Virus record (IMG/VR): IMGVR_UViG_3300031962_000001
Coordinates: 1 to 64,000 of that record
DNA from: a virus
Strand: one strand, 5' to 3'
Length of the DNA: 64,000 nucleotides
A program made the position numbers and the translations under genes. Every line of letters starts with the position of its first letter. The first letter of the stretch is position 1. Positions 4,236-53,392 of the stretch are shown here, piece after piece. The notes under the pieces are model-generated. The model searched no databases. It was given only the letters and a program-made list of their open reading frames with translations, and was not told where the DNA came from.

Positions 4236-4964
4236 ATGATTGCTTTTGTCAATCAAGCCGCTGGTGGTTCTGGTGGAACTTCCGTCAACCAGAACCTCGC
4301 GGTCACTGCTGGAAATCTAGTGGTAGCCGTAGGAAGTGCGAATTCTCCTGGAAGAACTCTTTCCATAACAGATGCGAATATAAACTGGACTCAACTGTCA
4401 GGAAGTCCCTGGACGGATTCTGCAAATTCTTGTACCACTGCTATATGGATCGGAACTGTAATCAACAGCGGGACGGATAACATAGCGATCTCTTCCAATG
4501 GAAGCCCAACCCTCACTGCGATGTCGGTAGCGCAGTATTCTGGGACTGCTAATTACCTGTCTGCACTTGACAAGATGGCCAAGGGAGATTTGGGGGCTAT
4601 CACTTCCGGAAATCCCTTGCTGACTGGAACTACTACTACGACTTCACAACCGAACGAAATGCTGGTGGCCTGCTATGGTTTACTAACCGCTGGTAATACT
4701 TTCACGCAAGGAGCTGGATACAGTCTGAGAGGGAATACGATTGGTGGAGGTCCACCTGCTATAGGAGCTGGTATAGAAGATAGGTCTGTGTCTGTCACTG
4801 GAGCCTACCAAGCTACCATCACAATAAACGGGAATACGACTGGAGGAACAGGGGTCATTCTAGCTTTGCAACCTCCTCCTGAAATCTTTTCTGCGCAAGA
4901 GTCTGTTTCACACTACGGCTCCGAAGGAGCCACATCGTTTGGAAATGTGATAGGTGGAGGCTAG
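4236..4964 (+). CDS. Beta-rich virion-associated protein, repeat family member 2
   Basis: This 242-residue protein is a paralogue of its upstream neighbour. It shows the same order of elements: an early AGNLVVAVGSA strand, ITDANINWTQLSG, SVAQYSGTANYL, and a closing GTGVILALQPPP strand. The C-terminus (SVSHYGSEGATSFGNVIGGG) matches the neighbour's SYGSKGVKAFGNIVN. The similarity points to local gene duplication. No catalytic signature is visible. A receptor-binding or decoration role is plausible from the fibre-like context but is not shown by the sequence. Confidence 0.55.
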   Translation: MIAFVNQAAGGSGGTSVNQNLAVTAGNLVVAVGSANSPGRTLSITDANINWTQLSGSPWTDSANSCTTAIWIGTVINSGTDNIAISSNGSPTLTAMSVAQYSGTANYLSALDKMAKGDLGAITSGNPLLTGTTTTTSQPNEMLVACYGLLTAGNTFTQGAGYSLRGNTIGGGPPAIGAGIEDRSVSVTGAYQATITINGNTTGGTGVILALQPPPEIFSAQESVSHYGSEGATSFGNVIGGG

Positions 4965-7900
4965 ATGGCGATAGGATTTGGAACCTCGGCAGTAGGAGCA
5001 AAGTCTCTTACTTCGGGCACATCATTCACTATCGCTTTGTCTTCTTCATCTAATGCTCAGATCGTAGTTGTAGTTATCTCCACCAACAATGGAAATCTCG
5101 TAACGAGCATTACAGATGGAGGTGGAAACACCTATTTTCGGAATAACTCTATAGCACAATCTGGTCTTACTGTAGAAGTCTGGTCTTCTAATACCCCACA
5201 TGCGGCAGCGTCTGGAACTATAACTGTCAATGTCACTACTGGATTCCGTTGCGCAGGAGTAGCAGCATCCTACACTGGCGTGGATTTGGTAGATGTCACG
5301 ACCGCTGCTACCACTGGGTCAACTTCTCCTATCACCACTGGCTCTACAGTTCTTAGAGACGCTTCTGATTGGTTGCTAATGGGAGGTGGATTGGCGGCAG
5401 CCAATACTTTCACTGCTCAGAACGGACAGCTAAGGAATCAAAATACTACGACTGGGCTGTCTGTCTGTTTGATAGATAGCAATGGAGCTTCCAGTCCTGT
5501 TACGGATTCTGCGACAATGACAGCGGCTAACTGGGGTCAGGTAGGAGTATTTCTCAGGACTGGAACTGGAGCGCCTTACATAGGAGATTCACAGCTTCCC
5601 ATGCAATACGGAGGGATAAAAGCCTCTGATCGAAGCTATTCTCGCCCGGATCAATTCGTAGCACCTCCGAAATTCGGATTGATAGTCGCCATAGACTCGA
5701 AAACAGTCGGATCGTGGAGACCTCTTCCCAGCATAGTATTTGGGAAGAGGATCTACTCCAGAGCCGTGCCTCTTGTGAATCCAGTTCAACCTCCAGCTAT
5801 AATCACATTGGATAGTTGGACTAGCACGCTAGGACGGAACTCTCTGCCTAACGAATTTGCGCTTCCTGACTTTGTACATCCAGAAACTGTAGTTCTTGCT
5901 ATCGCTATTCCTTCATTAGCGGCTTGGTTTAGAGTAGACGGAGTCAAAGCTCAGCCGCTAGATTACGCTTTTACAGATTTCATACACCCAGAAACTGTCA
6001 GAGCTCCTGTACTGCCATCTTGGTTTGGAACAGACGGAGTCAAGTCTCAACCACTAGATTATGCTTTTACTGACTTCATACATCCAGAAACTGTAGGAGC
6101 TCCTCAGGTTCAAATTCAAATATCTTGGCTGGGTGATAGACCGTATAGCACGTTCGCTAAATACCAACAGATAGAAACAGTCAGATCGCCTTTGCTCCCT
6201 ACTCTGCCACTTCTATCTTGGTACGACGACAAGCCTTGGTCTACATTTTCCTCGTTATTCAAGTGGATAGAAACGGTTGGCCAGATATATCCTACTCTAG
6301 TCTTACAATCTCTTGGATGGACTCCACCCATAAGTTCGTACAATTCTCCAAGAGGATTTTCAGGCTCTGAAGAAGATGTTAATCCTGGACCATTTTTAGC
6401 ATTCTTGTCTATATCTGGTTGGACTAGTACGATAGGGCAGAATTCTTTGCCCAACGTATTTGCGGAACCAGATTGGGTATCGTCTACTCTTCCTCAACCA
6501 ACGATTGTGACTTCTATATTAGAAGGGTGGACACCAACGACCGGGCAACAGGCGATTCCTCAAAGGTATCAGCAGATAGAAATTGCTAGACAGACTGCTC
6601 CAACTCTAGCGACTCTTCCTCTTCTATCTTGGTACGATGACAAACCATATAGCGCATTTGCGAAATACCAGCAGATAGAAACTGCAAGACCTGTGCTTTT
6701 GCCAAATCTGCCATTCATATCTTGGCTAGACGATAGACCGTGGTCAACATTGGGAAAGTTCCAGCAAATTGAGGCAGCAAGACCAATTTCTGCGGTCGTA
6801 GCAGCATTGCCTTTTATATCCTGGCTAGATGATAGACCTTGGATGGCATTTGGCAAATTCCAACAGATAGAAACAGCGCGGCAAGTCTATCCAACTCTCG
6901 CAACGCTTCCTTTATTTCCGGCAAGCTACACCAATATCGCTTCAAACGCTGTCTTGTTAAACTACGCTCTTACAGATCTAGTAAGACCCACATTCCCTCA
7001 AGTCATAGCGGCAGCGATTACCGTAGCTGGCTGGTCATCGACGACTGGGCAGAATGCTGTCTTATTGAAATATGCTCAGCCAGATGTCGTGGCTCAAGTA
7101 CGTCCGACGTTGGCTACGCTTCCGCTCATATCCTGGTACGATGATAGACCATTCAGCACGTTCGCCAAATTCCAGCAAATAGAGACTGTCAGACCGATTC
7201 TGATTTCTGCTTTGCCTTTCGTGTCTTGGCAGATTGTAGAAAGGAACTTGCTGACCCTTTCTCCAGACTACGCTCCTTCCGACTACGTGTCTGGTGCCGT
7301 CGTAAGATTGCCATTGCTGTCTTGGCTAGACGATAGACCATGGAGTTCTTTTGCAAAATACCAGCAAGTAGAAATCGCTAGACAAGTTCAGCCTACGTTG
7401 GCTACTCTGTCAATACTGCTATCTGGTCTAGCTGAAATCCCACCGAATGCTCAGCCTCAGAAATTTGCGTTGAGCGATTATTTCGCTCCGCCGAAGTATG
7501 GTCTGACGATAGCGGCAGCAATCACTGTCGCTGGATGGTCACCTACGATAGGACAGCAATCCGTCGTGCTGAAATACGCTCCTACGGATTTCGTAAACCA
7601 AATTAGACCAACGTTGGCTACTCTGCCATTCATTGCTTGGCAGCAAGTGGTTGAGAGAAATCTTCCAACCTTGTCTCCAGACTACGCTTCCACAGACTAT
7701 GTATCTGGCGTCGCGCCAAAGATTGCACTCCCTCTGATAAGCTGGCAGAAGGACGATACTGAATGGGTCAAGCTCGAATGGTATATGATGGCCGATACCT
7801 CAACCGGGCCGAGTACGACTGCGGCTGCGCTGGAAGCGTTCGTGTCGGCTCCTACTGGACCTCAAGCTGTGATTCTGCAATACGCTTCTACAGCTTGGGA

Positions 7901-14143: not shown

Positions 14144-16408
14144 ATGCCAAATTCTAGTTCACAACATGGGCAACTTCAGAGAGCTGGTATACAACGTTTG
14201 ATCTCTGATAAAAAAGGAAAGAAGAGGAAGAAGCTAGTCGCTTCTAAAATCAGAGAATCCTTCGGTGGCAAAATCTTTACAGAAAAGGGTCAAGACGAAA
14301 CTGGAAAGTCTGCTAACGGAAAACAACAAAAGAGCCGTGTCTACTTGGTTACGATTATTGAGGAAGGCTTAGGCAACTCGAAAGATCGCAATTATTATAG
14401 CAGCGACGCTCTCAAGTCTGGCACTAACGTATTCAATGGCGCGAAAGCCTACGCTGACCATCCAGACGCCATAACCGAAAAGACACTGCCAGAGCGCAGC
14501 ATGAAGGATTTGGTAGGTTGGTATAGCGATTGTTTTGTCGACAAGAATCCCCAAACCGGCAAGGCTCGTCTGCGTGGTAAGCTCCACTTCTTCCCATCCG
14601 CTAAGTGGCTCACCGACATGATCGACACAATTCTAACTGACAAGTCTGCCAAAAATCTTTTCGGGATATCTATCAATGCCGTAGGCCGAACAAGGCCAGC
14701 GCAAATGAACGGCGAAGAAGTGAACTATGTAGAAGAATTTCAGCGAGTAGACAGTGCTGACGTAGTGACAGAGCCAGCAGCACGAGGAAAGTTCGACCAA
14801 ATGCTGGAGTCTAGGCGATCTGTCGCGGGCGGTCACTCACGGAAAGTAAGTAACAGTATGGGAACTCGAAGCAAACGAACGAGAGAATCGGCGGTCTTAA
14901 GCCCCGAGAAGGCAAAAGAAGTTGCTGACGCTCTCGTATCGGCATATAACTCGGACAATCCAGACGAAATGAAAGAAGCATCGTTTTCAGCGGCGAAACA
15001 ACTCTACGCTGTTTCTTCCATATCTGGCAAAGGTCCGGGACAGCCAAACGAAGAGCAGTACAGCAACATCAATCCAAGTGGAGGTAAAGAGTCAATGGCA
15101 AAGAGTAAGAAGATGAAAGCCTCCATCGGACGGCGATCTTTCCGCAAAGGCAAGAGGCTTGTGGCCGCCGATGGCAAGGGAGCTGATAACGAAAACGTAG
15201 ACGAACCAGATCCTGACGACATCGAGCCTCGTTTGGAGGAATCCGATGTTGAGGACGAGGAAGGCGACAAGGACGTCGGCGCTCTAGACGACTTCGGCGG
15301 CAGCAAGCATTATGCCAAGGAAGCTCGCGGCCGAGGCGGTCGTAGGATGGCAGCACAAGAGGGCTTCGAGGACGAAGGCTTTGAGGACGAGGGAGCAGAA
15401 GACGAGGGCTTCGAAGATGAGGACGAGGGATTCGAAGACGAGGATGGCGGAATGCCAGGAGCGATGCCTCCGGGAGCGGGAATGGGTGCTGCTCCGGGTG
15501 GTGGTGCTCCGGGTTCTTCGCGAACCGTAGCATCTGCAGAAGCAGATGATGACGATGATGATGGTGATGATGATCTGGACGATATGGACGAGGCTTTCGA
15601 GGATGAAGACGAAGGCTTCGAGGATGAGGGGATGGAAGATGAAGGTGGCCAGATGCGTCCAGGAACAGTAGCAGAAGCAGGTCGTCGCCGGATGGCGGTC
15701 AGGGCAAGTGGTCGTAGTCCTCGCCGTCGTTTCAGCCGTGAAGCCGGACGTGCAAGCGGTCAAGGGCAGACTGTCAGCAAGGCCTCGTTCGCGGGTGGTC
15801 TCGGACACTCGGGGAACACTGCTTTGCCAAAGGGAGGCGACCCCACGAAGGGATACGATCCTGGAGGCACAGACGAGGATTGGGGCAAGAAGGACGATTC
15901 CACGTCTGCCGTGGGCAAGTCCTACAAGATCAAGACCAGCAAGTTCCGTCGCAACAAGGTAGCGCGTCGTGTCGCTCAAGAAGCCAATCGCCGCATTGAG
16001 ATTCTCGAGCATAACGTCATGCGTCTACGTGAATCCCTCAAGGCAACTGGGCGCACGCTCAATCGGTACAAGGGCATCGTCCGATTCACCGAATCTCAGA
16101 AGAGCGCACATCGGCTTCTGAACAGAGCTGTCGAAGAAGGTTTCCTTCCGGAGGAAATGGTCAACGAATCTCGAGTCCTGCGGGAATCTCTGTATGGCTT
16201 GAGTGAACGTGATCAGATCCGGGAGATCAAAAAGACTGCACTACTTCTTGAATCTGCTCAAGAGGGAGTGGTGTCTCGTTTGTCTGAAAGCGTTGATGGA
16301 AGTGGAGCCAGAGGCGGCGCTGTATCCTATATAAGGACCGCCGGAGCAGAAGACTCTGAGCTCGCTGCGGGATTTGCCGATGACGGCATTCCCCTCAAAG
16401 ACGAATAA
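14144..16408 (+). CDS. Prohead maturation protease fused to acidic scaffold
   Basis: This 754-residue protein has an N-terminal protease-like domain at residues 60-230, with candidate catalytic His106 (AYADHPD) and Ser186 (FGISINAVG), as in phage head maturation proteases. A long acidic, repeated segment follows at about 335-520 (GFEDEG and FEDEDEG units). A basic stretch and a helical, coiled-coil-like C-terminus (RIEILEHNVMRLRESLKA) complete it. The fusion of protease and scaffold, and the position before decoration and capsid genes, fit head assembly. Internal AKEARGRG and FSREAGRA sites may be self-cleaved. Catalytic residue assignment is provisional. Confidence 0.75.
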   Translation: MPNSSSQHGQLQRAGIQRLISDKKGKKRKKLVASKIRESFGGKIFTEKGQDETGKSANGKQQKSRVYLVTIIEEGLGNSKDRNYYSSDALKSGTNVFNGAKAYADHPDAITEKTLPERSMKDLVGWYSDCFVDKNPQTGKARLRGKLHFFPSAKWLTDMIDTILTDKSAKNLFGISINAVGRTRPAQMNGEEVNYVEEFQRVDSADVVTEPAARGKFDQMLESRRSVAGGHSRKVSNSMGTRSKRTRESAVLSPEKAKEVADALVSAYNSDNPDEMKEASFSAAKQLYAVSSISGKGPGQPNEEQYSNINPSGGKESMAKSKKMKASIGRRSFRKGKRLVAADGKGADNENVDEPDPDDIEPRLEESDVEDEEGDKDVGALDDFGGSKHYAKEARGRGGRRMAAQEGFEDEGFEDEGAEDEGFEDEDEGFEDEDGGMPGAMPPGAGMGAAPGGGAPGSSRTVASAEADDDDDDGDDDLDDMDEAFEDEDEGFEDEGMEDEGGQMRPGTVAEAGRRRMAVRASGRSPRRRFSREAGRASGQGQTVSKASFAGGLGHSGNTALPKGGDPTKGYDPGGTDEDWGKKDDSTSAVGKSYKIKTSKFRRNKVARRVAQEANRRIEILEHNVMRLRESLKATGRTLNRYKGIVRFTESQKSAHRLLNRAVEEGFLPEEMVNESRVLRESLYGLSERDQIREIKKTALLLESAQEGVVSRLSESVDGSGARGGAVSYIRTAGAEDSELAAGFADDGIPLKDE

Positions 16409-16430
16409 TCTGTAGTTCGGAGGAAATACA

Positions 16431-16934
16431 GTGTCACAACCGTTTAACGTAGTGAAGATCGAGAAGGAACGGGTAAGCCAAGTCCCCGTCAATCTCGCCA
16501 CTGCTTTCAACTCTGGCGATATGATGAAATGGGACCCAGCGAACCTCGTTGCTACTCCGATCGTAGCAGGTGACGCAGCCTCCGCAGCCGCAGCCGCTCT
16601 GTTCATCGGCGTCTCCAACGATACGAACCCGATCACTAGCTTGAGCCAGAACTTGCCCGTGTCTAGGATCGCTATTGTCACGCGTGGAATGTGTCTATTC
16701 ACGTGCGACGATTCGGCTACGTATTACGCTGGCGACGCCGTGACGTTCGGAGCCGACCCTCAGAAGATCCGTCATACGGGTGCTTCTGGAACTAACGTGA
16801 TTGGTTACGTTGCTCCAGAAAACACGTTCACGGTATCTGCTGGCGGACAGTCTGTAGGCATCGCAGCGACTCAGGGCGTAACACAGCTTCTGATCAATCT
16901 GCGGCCTCAGTACACGCAGTTGACGACGATCTAA
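16431..16934 (+). CDS. Capsid decoration-type protein
   Basis: This 167-residue protein uses a GTG start with GGAGGA upstream. It is rich in Ala, Thr and Val, lacks charged repeats, and has a beta-barrel-like pattern (RIAIVTRGMCLFTCDDSATY, AGDAVTFGADPQKI, VIGYVAPENTFTV). Small beta proteins of this kind between the protease-scaffold and the major capsid gene are usually head decoration or stabilising proteins. The assignment rests mainly on size, composition and order. Confidence 0.6.
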   Translation: MSQPFNVVKIEKERVSQVPVNLATAFNSGDMMKWDPANLVATPIVAGDAASAAAAALFIGVSNDTNPITSLSQNLPVSRIAIVTRGMCLFTCDDSATYYAGDAVTFGADPQKIRHTGASGTNVIGYVAPENTFTVSAGGQSVGIAATQGVTQLLINLRPQYTQLTTI

Positions 16935-16950
16935 TGGAGGAATGAGGAAA

Positions 16951-18021
16951 ATGAGAACCCCAATGAATCGATGGGACGAGGTTGCAGCCAAGATCGATTG
17001 GTTCAGCCCCGAACTCAGCTTCCGCCGCCTCCGTGAGAGTGCTTATCGTCAATCACGGGTCTTGCGCGAAGCGAATGCTGAGTCTGCTTTTGGACAGTTG
17101 TTGAGAGCGGGAGTACAGACTTACGCGATCAACAGCTATAACACAGTTCCAGTGATCTATCCCGATCTCGTGACAGAAGTAGCGTCACGTCGTTTCCAAG
17201 AGTACTACGCTCCGTTGTATCGCCCCAATCTACCGAAGCGCGTTGATCGTGGCCAAGAGTTCCAAGACAATCCAGTAGTTGGACTCGACCGTCACTTGAC
17301 CAACCAGAAATTCGGCATGATCGAGGCGTTTGAGCGCGAACTCTTTGATGACGATCAGACCGGGCAGATCAAGAACCGTGCGAGCCAGATGGGTGAGAAC
17401 TTCAAGATCATGGAAGAAATCTACGTGATCGGGAAGATCATCGGCGCTGGCTTCACAGTTCAGGGTGTCACGGTGGACCCGGATGTCAGCTTCACCGACA
17501 CGGTTCCAGCTGGCTTCACTGGCACTGGCTCCTACAATACTTCTAAGGGCAATCGCCCCGGCACGTTCGTCCGTCTGTCTCAATTGAACCTGGAAACTGC
17601 CGACATCAACCTGATGAACATAACCGATCCTCTTGGAAACAAGTTCCTCGTGTCTCCGAATACATTGTTGGTCTCGCCAATCGACAAGTTCGTAGGCGCG
17701 AAGCTCTTGAATTCCACGTTGCAGCCATCTGTCCCGTCTGCATCTCCTGACGCGACTGGCTACACGATGACGGTCAATCCTCTGCAAGGACTGTACAAGC
17801 TACTGGTCTCAAGGTTCCTCACGTCCAAAGCGTGGATCCTTGGCGACCCGAAGAAATGTATGGTCTTCCAGCGGCGCGACCCTCTGGAGATCATCCAAGA
17901 GAACCCGGCTTCTGGCCAGTCGTTCAGCATGGAAGTCTATCGGTTCAAGTCTCGCTCACGTTTTGAAGTCGGCATGATTGAAAGTCGCTTCAACTACATG
18001 GGTGACGATGGCACAGTCTGA
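16951..18021 (+). CDS. Major capsid protein
   Basis: This protein is about 356 residues long. The ATG at 16951 is chosen over 16942 because GGAGG at 16936-16940 lies ten bases before it. A basic N-terminal region ends in RVLREANAES, which fits a propeptide cleaved at RE-A. The body (VIYPDLVTEVASRRFQEYYA, FEREL with a GENFKIMEE helix, a SPNTLLVSP region and a final KAWILGDPKKCMVFQRRDPL) has the profile of HK97-fold capsid proteins. It follows protease-scaffold and decoration genes and is followed by a terminator, as expected for the most expressed virion gene. Confidence 0.8.
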   Translation: MRTPMNRWDEVAAKIDWFSPELSFRRLRESAYRQSRVLREANAESAFGQLLRAGVQTYAINSYNTVPVIYPDLVTEVASRRFQEYYAPLYRPNLPKRVDRGQEFQDNPVVGLDRHLTNQKFGMIEAFERELFDDDQTGQIKNRASQMGENFKIMEEIYVIGKIIGAGFTVQGVTVDPDVSFTDTVPAGFTGTGSYNTSKGNRPGTFVRLSQLNLETADINLMNITDPLGNKFLVSPNTLLVSPIDKFVGAKLLNSTLQPSVPSASPDATGYTMTVNPLQGLYKLLVSRFLTSKAWILGDPKKCMVFQRRDPLEIIQENPASGQSFSMEVYRFKSRSRFEVGMIESRFNYMGDDGTV

Positions 18022-18045
18022 GAAACAGCGCAAGCCGTTTTTCTA

Positions 18046-18076
18046 GGGGGAAGCTCTAACCGGCTTCCCCCTTTCT
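18046..18076 (+). terminator. Rho-independent terminator after the capsid gene
   Basis: GGGGGAAGC at 18046-18054 pairs with GCTTCCCCC at 18063-18071 (nine base pairs, eight-base loop), followed by TTTCT. It closes the head operon before the glycan cassette. Confidence 0.8.
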
Positions 18077-18098
18077 GTATGTAAAGAGGAGGAAGAAA

Positions 18099-18809
18099 AT
18101 GGAAGTAGAACGTGAACGTTTCGCAGCAGAAGTGGTTGGTAAGACAGCAAATAATAAAGCAATCGTTGGGCCGGAGCACAAGGTAGGACCGACGGAGAAG
18201 TTCGAGTTCGGGGTTCCAGGTGATGAGATAGCCAAGGTGATCGGCGGAGGCTATCAGAGTCTGTGGAATCCAGACTTCTTGCAGAAGGAGCTGGGCAAGG
18301 ATGGCACCTGCGCTCGGTTCTTCTTTGACAAGAAAGTGGTACTAGATGTGGGAGATCCAGACTCCAGTATCGTAAAGATGAAGCGGAGACTCTGCTTCAA
18401 GAATGGATTTGGATATCTCTGTGTGCCAGTGGGTTTCCAGAAGAACGAAGAAAAACTCAGGGAGCTGTACCAGTCGTCTCTGGAAGAGTATCGCCAATAC
18501 GAAAAGCTACATCCACGTCCAGCCATGATTCAGGAAACCGTTTTCACTGACGAGAAGGGCAACATTCGCAGAGCGTTCCTTACGGCCATTGACATCAAGG
18601 TCGGTGGCGGTATGACCGGAAATGTGGAGACACAGAGGCGCGAGCTTATGGAAGCCGAGAAGCTTTCCAAGAAAGAGCTGCGTTCTCTGAAAAACAATGC
18701 CAAGCTGCGCCGCAAGGTACGCGAGTGCCTGCAATCCGGCGCTCCGTTCAGGAATCCATTCATCGCTCCAGACAAGCGCCAGTTCAACGTGCAATATGGA
18801 GAGAAATGA
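18099..18809 (+). CDS. Unknown protein between capsid gene and glycan cassette
   Basis: This 236-residue protein starts after GAGGAGG. It has a mixed alpha/beta N-terminal half (FEFGVPGDEIAKVIGGGYQ, FFFDKKVVLDVGD) and a helical, lysine- and arginine-rich C-terminal half (LMEAEKLSKKELRSLKNN) ending in a short PFIAPDKRQFNVQYG tail. No family is recognised. It is the first gene after the capsid terminator. Confidence 0.5.
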   Translation: MEVERERFAAEVVGKTANNKAIVGPEHKVGPTEKFEFGVPGDEIAKVIGGGYQSLWNPDFLQKELGKDGTCARFFFDKKVVLDVGDPDSSIVKMKRRLCFKNGFGYLCVPVGFQKNEEKLRELYQSSLEEYRQYEKLHPRPAMIQETVFTDEKGNIRRAFLTAIDIKVGGGMTGNVETQRRELMEAEKLSKKELRSLKNNAKLRRKVRECLQSGAPFRNPFIAPDKRQFNVQYGEK

Positions 18810-47467: not shown

Positions 47468-47496
47468 TCGTGTTTCATATAGCTAGGGAGGAAGGC
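47468..47496 (+). promoter_or_regulatory. Conserved leader TCGTGTTTCATA, copy 2
   Basis: TCGTGTTTCATATAGCTAGG lies exactly 29 bases before the GTG start of the DnaB-like gene and overlaps the end of the upstream gene by only the last codon region. It matches the copies at 44044 and 58174. Confidence 0.55.
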
Positions 47497-48837
47497 GTGT
47501 CTGAGGAATATTCATGGAGTGAAAGTTTTCAACGCAAGTTGCTGGCTCTATACGTCCGCATACCGAACAAAACTTTTTCGATCATAGAGCCAAGCTATTT
47601 CACGAGTCCTGTCCACAGTGAGATAGCGAAGGTGGCTTCCAGCGTTTACAACGGACACAACAAAGCCGAAGTCAGAATCTCCAAGCCGACGCTGATTTCT
47701 CTAGTGCGAGGATATCTCGGCAAGAAGCGAGCGGAAGTCTGGCCTGGATACCGCAAGGAAATTCGGGACATCTACGAAGACGAACTCAAAGACAAAGACG
47801 TAATCCTTGGTCAAGCTCTGGCTTTCGCAAAAGAGCAGAAGTTCAGAGAGACACTAGTCCAAGCGGAAAAGGACATCAATGCAAAGCAATTCGACAGAGC
47901 GATAGCACGCTTCGACAAGATGAAAGGATTTGGGGAAGATAGAGACGTAGGGCTGGAATTTTGGAGGAATGTGAAAACTTCTAAGCGTTGGTTGGAAGAC
48001 AGAATGGGTCTGGTGGGCACATTCTATTTCAAAAAACTCGATAAGATGATGGGCGGTGGATTGGGTGGAGGAGAGCTTGGCATTGTCTTGGCTGGCGGCA
48101 AAGTTGGCAAATCTACGATACTCGCTAGGTTCGCGGCTGGTGCAATGTGGCAGGGGAAGAACGCCGCAATAGCGACTGGAGAACTCTCAGACAAGAAGTA
48201 TCGCAAACGCATAGACTCGATGTTCACTGTGATTCCTGGTTGGAAGCTCACGAAATACAGCAAGGGATTCATGGAAGACAACAAGAAGCTCACTAGATCT
48301 CTGGAGAAAGCGCAACGCAGATTGGAGCTGACGAAGAAGCAGGCGAAAGGAAGCCTCTGGATAAAACAGTGGCCTACGAACAAAGGCAAAGTCTCAGACA
48401 TCGAAAACTGGCTCGATGCCCTGAAAGAAAACGGAGTAGAAATTGATATTCTGTTTGTGGACTATGTCCGAGTGTTTCGGCCTAGCGAGAAATTCGATGA
48501 GCAGAGGCTCTCGATCGGAGCGGTCTGCATGGACTTGCGTGGCATCGCAGTGGCTAGAAATATTCCTGTGTGGACAGCGGCGCAGACAAACAGAGCGGCG
48601 CTATCCAAAGCAAGCATCGGTGCGGAGGATATGGCAGAGGACATTAGCCAATTCTGGACTCTGGATTTCTTGGTAGCCTTGTGCCAAACGGAGAACGAAT
48701 CGTTGAAGGACCCTGAGCGAGCAAGACTATTTCTAACGGCGGCAAGAGACGCTGGCAGAGGTGGCATTGTAAACATCAAACTGAAGCGCGACATCTTCAG
48801 AGTCTGGGAACAAGAGGACGGTAGACATAGGTCATGA
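47497..48837 (+). CDS. DnaB-like replicative helicase
   Basis: This 446-residue protein is read from GTG preceded by GGGAGGAAG. It has a helical N-terminal domain (FQRKLLALYVRIPNKTFSII), a linker, then the RecA-type motor with Walker A GGKVGKST at residues 200-207. IAIATGELS-like H1a and VEIDILFVDYVRVF (Walker B) follow, with IPVWTAAQTNRAAL carrying the sensor Gln and a late LKRDIFRVWEQ arginine region. It would unwind DNA at the fork with the primase encoded four bases downstream. Confidence 0.85.
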   Translation: MSEEYSWSESFQRKLLALYVRIPNKTFSIIEPSYFTSPVHSEIAKVASSVYNGHNKAEVRISKPTLISLVRGYLGKKRAEVWPGYRKEIRDIYEDELKDKDVILGQALAFAKEQKFRETLVQAEKDINAKQFDRAIARFDKMKGFGEDRDVGLEFWRNVKTSKRWLEDRMGLVGTFYFKKLDKMMGGGLGGGELGIVLAGGKVGKSTILARFAAGAMWQGKNAAIATGELSDKKYRKRIDSMFTVIPGWKLTKYSKGFMEDNKKLTRSLEKAQRRLELTKKQAKGSLWIKQWPTNKGKVSDIENWLDALKENGVEIDILFVDYVRVFRPSEKFDEQRLSIGAVCMDLRGIAVARNIPVWTAAQTNRAALSKASIGAEDMAEDISQFWTLDFLVALCQTENESLKDPERARLFLTAARDAGRGGIVNIKLKRDIFRVWEQEDGRHRS

Positions 48838-49751
48838 AAGATATTTCACAATACTTCGCCAGAGTTTGGCAGACTAGGGAAGGCTGGCATGCCAACTGTC
48901 CTCGCTGCGCAGACGGTGAAAGAAAATTCTACTGGAACGTAGACAAGGAAGTTGGATGCTGCTTCCATCACGATTGCCAGTGGTACTACAGCAAAGGCGG
49001 AGTAACTATTGCTAGGGCCTCCGCGTTCTTCTCGTCGGCTGGGCTGGCACTGCAAATCCCAGATGTGGTGGAATCAGAAGGCGAAGCAGAAGTCCAGCTA
49101 CCAGAGGAATTCAAAGTCGTAGGCTCTCTGGAGCCGGAGCTCAAGGAAACGCTTTACGCCTATCTCGAGTCCAGAGACTTAGGCAAGAAAATCGTGAAGG
49201 CCGCTCGCGTCGGCTATTGCAAGTCGGGACGCTGGTGGGGATACCTGGTCTTCCCGGTCTTCAACGACGAAGGGAAAGTGGTCTACTGGCAAGGCAGACG
49301 CTTCAAGGAACGTGAACCGAAGTTCTACAATCCAAAATCTAGCCAGAAATCCGAGCTCGTGTACCGCATCAATCCAAACGTCAGGCCTCGCAAAATCGTA
49401 TTGGTAGAATCCATCATCAACACACTCACGATAGACAGCGTGCAATCTGACCCGACTGTCGTGATGGCAATCCTTGGCAGTAGTCTGTCGGAAATCCAGA
49501 AGCAATATATCCTCAGGTTTGAAAAGCGTCTCAAGGAAGTCTGCATCGCCATGGATGGAGACAAGCGCAGGGAAGGAGTCGAAATGGCAGAACAGTTTTG
49601 GGCGGCAGGCATTCGCAGTACGATAGCGCCTATACCGGATGGCGAGGACATCAACAGCCTAGGCCGGAAAGAAGCTTTGCGAAGAATTTCTCGTGCTGAG
49701 GTGTTTCATAAGGGTAGCAGGTCGGAGATCATAACTAGGAAGATCGCATGA
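48834..49751 (+). CDS. DNA primase (zinc finger plus TOPRIM)
   Basis: This 305-residue protein begins with a zinc finger (C22-x2-C25 and a CCFHHDC cluster at 42-48), like the T7 gp4 primase module. The TOPRIM domain has KIVLVESIINTLTI (conserved Glu) and VCIAMDGDKRREG (DxD). It also shows a YLVFPVFNDEGKVVYWQGR substrate strand. It follows the DnaB-like helicase with a four-base overlap, so helicase and primase are separate polypeptides here. Its stop overlaps the LAGLIDADG-type gene. Confidence 0.85.
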   Translation: MKDISQYFARVWQTREGWHANCPRCADGERKFYWNVDKEVGCCFHHDCQWYYSKGGVTIARASAFFSSAGLALQIPDVVESEGEAEVQLPEEFKVVGSLEPELKETLYAYLESRDLGKKIVKAARVGYCKSGRWWGYLVFPVFNDEGKVVYWQGRRFKEREPKFYNPKSSQKSELVYRINPNVRPRKIVLVESIINTLTIDSVQSDPTVVMAILGSSLSEIQKQYILRFEKRLKEVCIAMDGDKRREGVEMAEQFWAAGIRSTIAPIPDGEDINSLGRKEALRRISRAEVFHKGSRSEIITRKIA

Positions 49752-50020
49752 TCGACAGAAAATATCTAGCTGGGCTCTTTGACGGGAGAGGGCACATAGA
49801 ACTCCTAGAAAATGGCGGGATGCGAGTGCATATTCGCATGGGCGGTGATGTACCCATGCTTCTGAAAGAGGAATTTGGCGGGACCTGTTTCAAGAACGGC
49901 AAAAAATGGTGGTTTCGGGTGCAGGGGGAAAATGCCCGTTTTCTGCTCAGCGAAATTTTGCCCTATTTGCGGGTGACCAAAAAACGGGTCAAAAAGCTGA
50001 TGGCGAAAAATGGGCTGTGA
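49748..50020 (+). CDS. LAGLIDADG-type protein, short or truncated
   Basis: This 90-residue protein starts MIDRKYLAGLFDGRGHIELL, which fits the LAGLIDADG signature of homing endonucleases (LAGLFDGRGHI). Only one motif and about half of a typical monomer (around 160 residues) remain. The usual acidic residue that follows the first Asp-Gly is replaced by Arg. The C-terminal LPYLRVTKKRVKKLM segment is also typical. It overlaps the primase stop and lies directly before the structured RNA region. It may be a degraded homing gene or an adopted DNA-binding protein. Confidence 0.65.
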   Translation: MIDRKYLAGLFDGRGHIELLENGGMRVHIRMGGDVPMLLKEEFGGTCFKNGKKWWFRVQGENARFLLSEILPYLRVTKKRVKKLMAKNGL

Positions 50021-50050
50021 TTCGCAGAGCAGGAGCGGCGAAGAAAAGGC

Positions 50051-50079
50051 TTTACAAGGGGCTTGCCAAGTAGTATGAT
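50051..50079 (+). promoter_or_regulatory. Sigma70-like promoter of the noncoding RNA
   Basis: TTTACA at 50051-50056 and TATGAT at 50074-50079 are each five of six matches to consensus and are separated by the ideal 17 bases. This is the best vegetative-type promoter I see in the window. Transcription would start near 50086, inside a region with no gene for 1 kb. Confidence 0.7.
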
Positions 50080-50085
50080 TTTACT

Positions 50086-51045
50086 AGTGGTAGAGGTTAG
50101 GTTAGTTACTTAAAACTAACTTATGTTCTTTGAAAAATAAAGGTTCCAGCAAGCAAGGCCGAGCGGGGAAACGCAAACCTGCAGACTAAATGTGCCGACG
50201 CTTAACAAGGCGCAAGCATGTTACAGATACTAGGGGTAGCAAACTACCGGCAAAGTATACGCAAGGCAATAATGCTGAAAGCGCCGATTCCTGACAAGGA
50301 CTTTTGTGCGCCCACCGTAACCGTGCTGTAAGCATACCGCGCTCTGCGAAGAGCAAAATAATAAGGTGTGCGAAAGCGTGACGTGCGACTTAGGTTGCGC
50401 CGATCGCGAGGCAATTAAGGTGTGGGCAATAGCAAACATCGGACCGTAAGTAAGCATGTTTTTTGGAACCCAAATCGCGAATGACGGTAGAAACCTCCCG
50501 TTTCTACCAGCAGGAAAACATAAAACTCTTAACCTTTATATACGCTTGCCCAGCGGGATGCCGCACCAACGGCAAGTGTAGAAGCAAATGCCTCACGGCG
50601 GGGATGCGTCCTATAGCGTAGAGTGAGAGGGTGAAAAATATTCCAGCGTTGCGAGTCATTCGCAGGAGAGTGCAGTCGTGCAGTGTCGTTGCTTGGGGCA
50701 GTTAGTTCGCTATCCATCTCCGTGATAGCGGTGGAGGCCCGGCGATACTTGCATGTGCGATACGCTCTGGTTAGCACGCGCCACATAGAATGGAATGCGG
50801 GATCAGAAAACGGCAAAAGGATTAGTCGCTAGTCCAAGATATGAGCGAACCGTGGTATGTCCCACGTAAAATAAATGTAGTGAAATGGCACCGTTGTTTT
50901 TGGTAGTACCTAACTTCAGCTCGCTGTCGAGAATCAGGCCCGTCAGCCACTCTGGCGGATACCGCATGAGTACTCTAGGAAAGTTCTCGACTAGCGACGT
51001 GGGAGTTCTGCTCGTCAGAATTCCCTCGCCGCTTGAAAAGGCGGA
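50086..51045 (+). ncRNA. Large structured noncoding RNA candidate (about 0.95 kb)
   Basis: The stretch 50021-51102 has no credible + strand gene. It holds many perfect helices: 50101-50107/50114-50120 (7 bp), GGTAG-CAAA-CTACC at 50235-50248, GCTCT-GCGA-AGAGC at 50341-50354 (GNRA loop), a 9 bp hairpin 50486-50494/50500-50508, a 10 bp stem 50541-50550/50571-50580 (one G-U) enclosing GCGG-GATG-CCGC, 50708-50714/50724-50730 with a possible CTCC/GGAG pseudoknot, and 51001-51010/51016-51025. Long-range helices are GGTTCCA/TGGAACC (50142-50148/50464-50470) and a 10 bp perfect GTCGCTAGTC/GACTAGCGAC (50825-50834/50989-50998). Phage-borne giant RNAs such as GOLLD and ROOL have this size and setting, but I cannot assign it to either class. 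Confidence 0.7.
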
Positions 51046-51058
51046 AACGTAGTATAAT
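51033..51058 (+). promoter_or_regulatory. Probable promoter of the FtsK-like gene
   Basis: A perfect TATAAT lies at 51053-51058. TTGAAA at 51033-51038 is a possible -35 but is only 14 bases away, so the -35 assignment is uncertain. Transcription would start near 51065, just at the hairpin that follows. Confidence 0.5.
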
Positions 51059-51066
51059 GCTGACTA

Positions 51067-51083
51067 GCTAGACGCTGTCTAGC
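51067..51083 (+). promoter_or_regulatory. 5'-terminal hairpin of the FtsK-like mRNA
   Basis: GCTAGAC-GCT-GTCTAGC forms a seven base pair stem with a three-base loop, directly downstream of TATAAT and upstream of AAAAAGGAG. It could protect the mRNA 5' end or serve as an operator. Confidence 0.55.
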
Positions 51084-51102
51084 ATAAAAAGGAGAAAGTG
51101 AA

Positions 51103-52533
51103 ATGAGAACCAAAGAAGAATGGCTTGAGAACCTGATGTGCTGCGAAGGCTGCAAAGTGTTGGGCGAAGGCAAAGTCGGTTGCTTCTGGAAGAAACAGCA
51201 TTGTCCGTTGTGTGGCAAGGCTACTTCGAAATTCAAGAAGCTGAACGGCAAGAAGGGCGAGAAAATCCTTCGCTTCCCCCGCGAGGCTAGCACGGCAACG
51301 AAACAGCAAGTGGCGATCATGAAACAGATCAACGACCGCTGCCGCGACTTCGATTGCCCGGGAAAAGTGGTGGACGTTATCACTGGTCCCGTGGTTACCG
51401 AATACGTTTTCGAGCCTGACCGGTTCACCCGCGTCAAGAAGCTGAAGGGCCTGAACGAGGAACTTTCGCTGACACTGAGCAAGCCGGAACTCGGCATCGG
51501 CTCTGTGGAAACCGTCACCATCCGCCGCATCGCAGGCAGAGCAGCCATCGGCATCTCAGTGCCGAATCCAGACCGTAAGATGGTCAGCTTCAAGGATTGC
51601 CTGAAAAATGTCATCGCACATCGAGACGACATGGAATTGCCGCTCAACATGGGCGTCACTTCCACGGGCGAACCTTATGTGGAGGACCTCGCCACGATGC
51701 CGCATCTGCTTATCGGTGGTAGCACTGGCACTGGCAAGTCGGTATACCTTAATGCTTTGCTGACCAGCTTGCTCTATATCCGCTCGCCGAAGCAACTCTG
51801 GCTCTACATGATCGACCCGAAATCTGTGGAGCTCTTTCCATACAAAGGTCTGCCGCACCTCAAGCGCGACCCGGTCAACGATGTGTACGAGGCGCTCAGC
51901 GTCATGGACACGATCGAACAGGAAATGCGCCGTCGCACTAACAACCTCCACATCAACAAAGCTAAGGATATCAAGGAACTCAACACGCGCATCAAGGGCG
52001 AGGTTGCCGAGCTCAGAAAGCAAGGCAAGGAAGAGGAAGCCAAGAAGCGCGAAGCCGATCTCTGGCCCTACATTATATTGGTCATCGATGAGATGGCTGA
52101 TCTGGTGCTGGCAGAGAAGAAAATGTTCACCCAGAAGCTGGCGTGCATTTCCCAGATGGCTCGCGCCGCTGGCATCTGCATCATCAGCGCAACCCAGCGT
52201 CCGTCTGTGGACGTGCTGCCGGGAAAAATCAAGGTGAACTTCCCCGCTCGCGTCTGCTTCCGCGTGCCTAGCGCCGTGGATGGCAAGACGGTGCTGAACT
52301 ACAAGGGAGCGGAAACGCTGCTGGGCAAGGGCGACTGCTTTTTGGTGTCGCCTAACAAGGCTGGTCTCCAGCGCATCCACGTCCCCTACTGCACTCCGGC
52401 CGATCGCGACGAAATGCTGAAAATCTCGCTGGAATTCGGGCACGTCCTGAAAGTCCCGGCGGATTCTATGGAAGTCGCCGCTCCGGTCGTGGAGAAGAAA
52501 AACGGCAAGCCTGCCTCCAAGCTGGTCAACTAG
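51103..52533 (+). CDS. FtsK/SpoIIIE-like DNA translocase with zinc-finger leader
   Basis: This 476-residue protein has a Cys-rich leader (C13, C14, C17, C27, C34, C37) and an LRFPRE motif at residues 57-60. The FtsK alpha domain follows at about 88-170 (ITGPVVTEYVFEPD, AIGISVPNPDRKMVSFKD). The motor has Walker A GGSTGTGKS at 205-213 and Walker B YIILVIDEMADL near 323-334, then ICIISATQRPSVDVLPGKIK. It has no membrane segments and lacks the C-terminal winged-helix gamma domain that reads KOPS. Its codons end in G or C much more often than those of surrounding genes, suggesting separate origin. It probably pumps DNA in the infected cell. Confidence 0.85.
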   Translation: MRTKEEWLENLMCCEGCKVLGEGKVGCFWKKQHCPLCGKATSKFKKLNGKKGEKILRFPREASTATKQQVAIMKQINDRCRDFDCPGKVVDVITGPVVTEYVFEPDRFTRVKKLKGLNEELSLTLSKPELGIGSVETVTIRRIAGRAAIGISVPNPDRKMVSFKDCLKNVIAHRDDMELPLNMGVTSTGEPYVEDLATMPHLLIGGSTGTGKSVYLNALLTSLLYIRSPKQLWLYMIDPKSVELFPYKGLPHLKRDPVNDVYEALSVMDTIEQEMRRRTNNLHINKAKDIKELNTRIKGEVAELRKQGKEEEAKKREADLWPYIILVIDEMADLVLAEKKMFTQKLACISQMARAAGICIISATQRPSVDVLPGKIKVNFPARVCFRVPSAVDGKTVLNYKGAETLLGKGDCFLVSPNKAGLQRIHVPYCTPADRDEMLKISLEFGHVLKVPADSMEVAAPVVEKKNGKPASKLVN

Positions 52534-52981: not shown

Positions 52982-53392
52982 ATGGACCGCCCTATAGTAG
53001 CGGTGCTGGAAACAATGTGGGGATACCGGTCCGGCCGCGCCCCGCGCTGGTTCCGTATCAACCCGCAGAACGCTTCTGGCCGTAGGCTATACAAACTCAT
53101 AGGCGAAGAAAATTCTCATCGCCTCCTTGTCACCAATGCTTGCCGTGAACTAGTCACAAGCGCAAAGCGCCACGGCAAGCCGGACCCGGATTGGCTTCTG
53201 GAAAACCTTATCCGGCTTGACCCGCACCTTATATTAGTGTGTGGCAACGTAGCCCAAAAAGCCTACAAAGCCTGTGGCTATGTTCCGCTTCGCAAGTCAC
53301 GCGTGCTCCACATAGCGCATCCGGCCGCACGCAACTGGACCAAGAAACGTCTGAGAGAAGTGCAAAGGAGAATAGCAAATGGATCACGATGA
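52982..53392 (+). CDS. Uracil-DNA glycosylase-superfamily-like protein
   Basis: This 136-residue protein resembles small members of the UDG fold. It has LLVTNACRELVTSAKRHGKP, a helix with WLLENLIRLDPHLILVCGNV, and HIAHPAARNWTKKR in the place of the HPS-type catalytic or binding loop. Family members remove uracil or bind DNA. The usual N-terminal GxxPGxxE motif is not visible, so activity is uncertain and it may be an inactive or very short variant. The next gene overlaps its end. Confidence 0.55.
   Translation: MDRPIVAVLETMWGYRSGRAPRWFRINPQNASGRRLYKLIGEENSHRLLVTNACRELVTSAKRHGKPDPDWLLENLIRLDPHLILVCGNVAQKAYKACGYVPLRKSRVLHIAHPAARNWTKKRLREVQRRIANGSR

Follow-up and report, generated by a model that had tools for sequence, protein, structure and literature searches.

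A candidate structured RNA of about 0.95 kb with a boxA-type leader in a narrow family of uncultivated phages

What occupies a stretch of more than 1 kb in a phage genome where no gene can be recognised? The stretch lies in IMG/VR virus record IMGVR_UViG_3300031962_000001 (92,914 bases), of which the 64,000 bases from positions 1 to 64,000 were analysed (the window), and the block under study is 50021–51102 (1.08 kb), with surrounding genes all on the + strand (Table 1). If only ORFs of 100 aa or more are counted, so that a 90-aa LAGLIDADG-like ORF falls inside the gap, 49752–51102 (1351 nt) is far longer than any other coding gap in the window, the next being 469 nt. The block contains several frames of 40–100 aa on both strands, and when its 15 stop-to-stop frames of at least 35 aa were compared with the blocks of related phages, there was no match better than about E=0.06. 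An initial annotation of this DNA had found no credible gene here and had named conservation evidence for a gene as grounds for rejecting an RNA; the gap is indeed the largest in the window, and 0 of the 15 frames are conserved in relatives. We favour, at somewhat better than even confidence, the explanation that the + strand from 50086 to about 51045 is the gene for a structured non-coding RNA of about 0.95 kb which is made with rRNA-type antitermination, acts in trans and belongs to a new family.

Table 1. Positions of genes and RNA features at the locus, numbered from the first base of the window.
Feature	Position	Strand	Remark
DnaB-like helicase gene	47470-48837	+	upstream neighbour
DnaG-like primase gene	48834-49751	+	upstream neighbour
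90-aa ORF, LAGLIDADG-like by eye	49748-50020	+	PHROG 5046 (annotated HNH endonuclease), E=5.6e-8
sigma70-type promoter, TTTACA-17-TATGAT	50051-50079	+	10/12 consensus matches
P0 leader hairpin (GTTAGTT/AACTAAC)	50101-50120	+	just 5' of boxA; pairs with differing letters in five members
boxA, GTTCTTTGAAAA	50125-50136	+	rRNA-type antitermination signal by sequence; single copy in genome
P1, 5' strand GGTTCCA	50142-50148	+	closes domain 1, pairs with 50464-50470; swap test 16/720
P1, 3' strand TGGAACC	50464-50470	+	swap test 16/720
Peripheral arm (GGTAGAAAC ctccc GTTTCTACC)	50486-50508	+	between domains 1 and 2; closed hairpin, empty in window
Domain 2, including HP1 (50826-50848) and HP2 (50851-50866)	50510-50925	+	HP1 and HP2 pair in six members
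Helix A element (50926-50933/50984-50991)	50926-50991	+	round conserved TCAGGCCC..GGATACCGCA..CTAGGAA loop; covariation
3' element: AGCGAC, helices C and B, hairpin D	50993-51044	+	B and C pair in six members
Helix C	50993-50996/51030-51033	+	two-position compensatory change in L029
Helix B	51001-51010/51016-51025	+	few mismatched cells in L002 and L004
Hairpin D	51029-51032/51041-51044	+	part of 3' element
FtsK/SpoIIIE-type gene	51103-52533	+	downstream context, outside the RNA

The family consists of seven distinct related uncultivated phages: the window and six other phage genomes (L002, L003, L004, L014, L024 and L029) in which a related non-coding block follows the primase gene and lies 5' of ftsK. 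FtsK and primase queries found L002, L003 and L004, an FtsK profile found L024/L025 and L029/L022, and a DNA pattern taken from the block's 3' end, GGATACCGCAN{4,14}CTAGGAA, led independently to L014, where a helicase gene, a primase gene and a LAGLIDADG-like ORF again lie upstream. Membership of the three most distant phages is based on position, leader and anchored helices. L004, L024 and L029 do not have the helix A loop motif, and domain 2 is apparently absent from L024. Other matches to GGATACCGCA..CTAGGAA (L006–L012, L015–L018) were rejected as members because they have neither boxA nor the 3' motif.

Sequence similarity among the blocks is low (blastn aligns pieces of about 55 bases), and the family is narrow in the collections searched. 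For example, an 18-base HP2 pattern matches, among 2.9 million contigs, only family contigs, L029's included, while viral scans with the patterns ATACCGCA..TAGGAA..AGCGAC and TTCTTTGAAAAATAAAGG added only chance matches, mostly in coding DNA. Genome contigs scanned with a primase alignment and the 3' motif yielded no member, and their two pattern matches were without the family motifs. The window and L002 RNAs had no blastn match among INPHARED phages, and there is no close cultured relative, since the best INPHARED proteins reach only about 35% (FtsK) and 27% (primase) identity. As for neighbouring genes, the 90-aa LAGLIDADG-like ORF directly 5' of the RNA promoter has same-place homologues in L014 and L029, and L004 has an ORF that resembles it by eye. 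A UDG-family ORF (52982–53392, +; PF03167, E=7.7e-9) lies downstream of ftsK, and L004 has a similar ORF at 4699–5100.

Aligning whole domains with MAFFT gave almost no consensus structure except at the 3' helices, so the helices were curated from conserved anchors (the MAFFT alignment of HP1–HP2 was misaligned and left unused). Helix A, anchored between TCAGGC and [CT]AGCGAC, is the clearest case, with strands GTCGAGAA/TTCTCGAC in the window, GACGGAGA/TCTCCGTC in L002, GGCAGTCAC/GTGACTGCC in L003 and GAGAAGGAA/TTTCTTCTC in L014. Across these four, 34/34 cells are paired, seven of the nine pairs have changed on both sides and none is broken, giving a covariation score of 1.00; shuffles scored 0.32 and slid controls no more than 0.33. 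Stems ending at the same GCGAC are also present in L029 (11 bp) and L004 (9 bp). The strands of P1 likewise differ between members, e.g., TAGGCCAGC/GCTGGCCTA in L014 and GGGCTTCGGG/CCCGAAGTCC in L003. A covariance model of the helix A element (R1) has a single match in each of four genomes and none in L004, L024 or L029, which are without its inner loop sequence.

Because some helices were picked by eye, pairing percentages are biased upwards, and swap and slide tests are fairer measures. In the swap test, strands from anchored windows are exchanged among members, and the energy of the true partners is compared with that of the permutations. The number of permutations as good as the true one, itself counted, was 1/720 for helix A, 1/120 for the relatives' arms, 3/5040 for P0 and 16/720 for P1; with seven sequences, these swaps and the slides are the only control for phylogenetic background. 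The curated helices also contain eight G-U cells against two A-C cells, which favours the + strand as the RNA strand. The initial annotation had read the block as a giant structured phage RNA and proposed a covariation check; run here as swap, slide and shuffle tests on up to seven members, that check found compensatory changes in the related phages and supports the reading.

One further observation concerns the 3' end, where AGCGAC (50921–51044 region, +) has two conserved potential partners, a UCGCU-like sequence 5' of helix A and CCGCUG after helix B, and minimum-energy folds of single members pick one or the other. The CCGC can alternatively pair with GCGG of the hairpin near the next RBS. 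A switch or assembly step by strand exchange at this end of the RNA is possible.

Scanning with all 4227 Rfam families (cmscan) gave no match in the window at gathering thresholds, in the block at E-values up to 5 or in the relatives' loci at E-values up to 1. GOLLD and ROOL, to which a hit would have assigned the block, are among the families without a match, as are OLE (RF01071), HEARO (RF02033) and the group I and group II introns. Together with the covariation, this favours a new class, the second of the two outcomes that the initial annotation had foreseen.

The RNA opens with hairpin P0 followed by GYTCTTTGAAAA, an element overlooked in the initial annotation which we read as boxA. This 12-mer has one copy each in four genomes (G000, G041, G043, G045), only at the head of the RNA, and the reversed control pattern occurs in 0/7 genomes. 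Imperfect versions are present in L002 (GCTCATTGAAAA), L004 (GTCCTTTGACAA) and L024 (TCCAATTGACAA), so a boxA near the 5' end of the transcript (GYTCTTTRANA) is exact in four members and degenerate in three. The published gamma-proteobacterial consensus is GYTCTTTAANA (PMC5725501), with A where the family boxA and the sampled 16S leaders have G. Those leaders, from five distinct genomes of one bacterial phylum that may not be the host's, carry GCTCTTTGAAAA or GTTCTTTGAAAA; in the L067 leader, boxA directly follows a hairpin, and the order in rrn operons is boxB-boxA (PMC10250234). Reporter assays show boxA acting against Rho in RNA that is not translated, and maturation of rRNA is promoted by the Nus complex (PMC4807359).

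A close parallel to this arrangement is the rRNA operon leader (boxB-boxA-boxC), which shares the order of promoter, hairpin, GYTCTTTGAAAA and long untranslated structured RNA. However, the RNA downstream is not rRNA (no Rfam match), and no leader-trailer helix was identified. Outside rRNA operons, boxA is reported before CRISPR arrays (PMC7862264), where it likewise serves a long untranslated non-rRNA RNA, but the family has a single ornate phage RNA rather than a repeat array.

Hairpin plus boxA is also the make-up of lambdoid nut sites (PMC10250234), so the leader might instead modify the polymerase for ftsK and other downstream genes, with the 1-kb RNA as a cis-acting structured leader. 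An intrinsic terminator was looked for on the + strand after the RNA and none was seen before ftsK, so read-through from the RNA into downstream genes is possible, and helix C and the hairpin close to the next RBS could form in alternation. However, a nut site needs tens of bases and not a conserved 1-kb fold, and the covariation reaches the 3' end. Moreover, the gene directly 3' of the RNA varies among relatives, which disfavours a cis-regulator of one gene, and we judge this explanation unlikely.

Somewhat less likely again is that the RNA is a sponge for Nus factors, i.e., an abundant boxA transcript which titrates NusB/S10 and so lowers host rRNA synthesis. There is precedent in lambda nutL RNA, which at high levels titrates Nus factors and reduces rRNA expression (work cited in PMC4807359), and restriction of the exact boxA to the RNA head in four genomes would suit such a role. 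A sponge would nevertheless not need the 0.9 kb of conserved structure that comes after its single boxA.

The peripheral arm, an empty hairpin in the window, holds a different small RBS-led ORF in each of five relatives, framed by complementary strands. The products are basic in L002 and L003 (52 and 51 aa), Cys-rich in L029 (32 aa), 64 aa long in L024 and 97 aa long in L014, where an HNH-like pattern is visible by eye and a Pfam search gave no match. Since the ORFs are RBS-led and framed in this way, the arm seems to be peripheral and tolerant of translated insertions. Look-alike HNH-type ORFs (MSMRKSTRQELRK...) occur in the arm of L014 (992–1285, −) and downstream of the RNA in L029 (4995–5312, +), the latter with a weak PF01844 match (E=0.043) below the curated cut-off; an HNH-type gene seems to have moved into or out of the RNA.

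Introns typically carry ORFs in peripheral loops, and the HNH-like ORF inside the L014 arm, along with the LAGLIDADG-like ORF that immediately precedes the RNA in the window, L014 and L029, could point to a mobile ribozyme resembling a group I intron, a group II intron or HEARO, one of whose peripheral loops houses a homing-endonuclease gene. This is improbable: there is no Rfam intron or HEARO match even at relaxed E-values, the flanking primase and FtsK genes are complete, the RNA has its own promoter and boxA, and most members have no nuclease inside. Look-alikes of group I intron motifs seen by eye (AGACUAAAUG, AAGAUAU) have no Rfam support and are not conserved.

The near-consensus promoter described in the initial annotation was confirmed, and by eye similar -35/-10 pairs occupy the corresponding position in L014 (TTGCGT-17-TACAAT), L004 (TTTACA-17-TAACAT), L024 (TTGCTT-17-GATAAT) and L029 (TTTACT-17-TAACCT). 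The 5' end of the RNA is probably near 50086, and the conserved 3' helices extend to about 51044. Folding energy is a poor guide here. The + strand of the full block folds at −337.7 kcal/mol (z=−3.1, 20 shuffles; z=−2.0 for the − strand), but in 300-nt windows its z-scores (−1.3, −1.5 and −0.1) do not improve on those of randomly drawn windows from this phage, which are mostly coding and in some cases reach −3.5. Fold z-scores are misleading in this genome, and thermodynamic stability, including that of the local helices which the initial annotation had counted in favour of an RNA, is therefore not evidence for one. Coding windows at 16350–18300 (+) fold more stably than the RNA block (z about −2.5 to −3.5).

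A 10-bp long-range helix proposed from the sequence, 50825–50834/50989–50998 (GTCGCTAGTC/GACTAGCGAC), also fell away: the complement is perfect, yet chance alone would give about 0.6 such matches over 1.08 kb (N^2/2 x 4^-10), no counterpart was found in the relatives, and the pair overlaps the conserved helices HP1, A and C. That the block is no RNA gene, and holds protein genes, small or decayed, or an element that works at the DNA level, is very hard to credit despite the 40–100 aa frames on both strands and the ordinary short-window fold, given that no frame is conserved, that compensatory changes fall in helices anchored by conserved unpaired motifs, and that the + strand helices have the G-U excess noted above.

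To our knowledge, very few bacterial or phage RNAs reach this size, and those of phages have no settled function. GOLLD resembles the family in being phage-borne, about 0.8–1 kb long and built of a conserved 3' part and a variable 5' part, and its linker can carry a tRNA, where the family's linker can carry an ORF (PMC12286853). The family differs in having no match to the model, a boxA leader and, in the window, no tRNA genes; the GOLLD model (RF02032) also had no match in the relatives' whole records, in a run without a positive control. ROOL, found in phages and plasmids, is likewise a large ORF-less RNA, but its model (RF03087) matched neither the window nor the relatives while detecting a positive control on pMP118, and that copy has no boxA just upstream. 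The ICP1 transcript from the gp139–gp140 gap is also ORF-less and about 0.8–1 kb long, and was found experimentally to be the most abundant phage transcript (PMC7567579). Unlike the family, it has no boxA just upstream, has an apparent intrinsic terminator and shares no motif that we could see. A literature search found no paper linking a boxA leader with GOLLD, ROOL or OLE.

We return to a new family of structured RNAs, which probably acts in trans like GOLLD and ROOL while being unrelated to both by sequence. Such a role is suggested by its size, its location in phages, its GOLLD-like layout of conserved 3' and variable 5' parts and the abundance of the ICP1 and ROOL transcripts (PMC12286853, PMC7567579). 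Host RNA polymerase would start at the promoter, and the nascent P0 hairpin and boxA would bring in the NusB/S10 (NusE) antitermination complex of the host. Thus modified, the polymerase could then cross about 1 kb of untranslated RNA with no Rho termination and assist its folding, as for pre-rRNA. The product would fold into a 5' domain of lower conservation, an arm that tolerates insertions and may carry a passenger ORF, a second domain and the conserved 3' element. Of all this, the conserved structure, the boxA sequence in the leader and the passenger ORFs can be seen in the sequences themselves. As well as Nus recruitment, we infer processing, abundance and a function in trans: during infection, the finished RNA may serve as a large RNA or RNP scaffold, as suspected for GOLLD and ROOL.

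A broader idea, which we put forward tentatively and do not expect to hold in full, is that the giant phage RNA is a biosynthetic mimic of rRNA: the host's machinery for transcribing and assembling rRNA (boxA, the Nus complex and perhaps associated ribosomal proteins) would be taken over to fold a large RNA machine, whose insertion-tolerant arm would be a landing site for passenger genes, homing nucleases included. The family adds a giant RNA unrelated to the known ones, and the rRNA-type boxA leader gives a concrete hint as to how this RNA may be made. It offers an example of a structured RNA that seems to accept passenger ORFs in a peripheral arm, and it opens to experiment the question of whether phages produce or fold giant RNAs with the help of the Nus complex.
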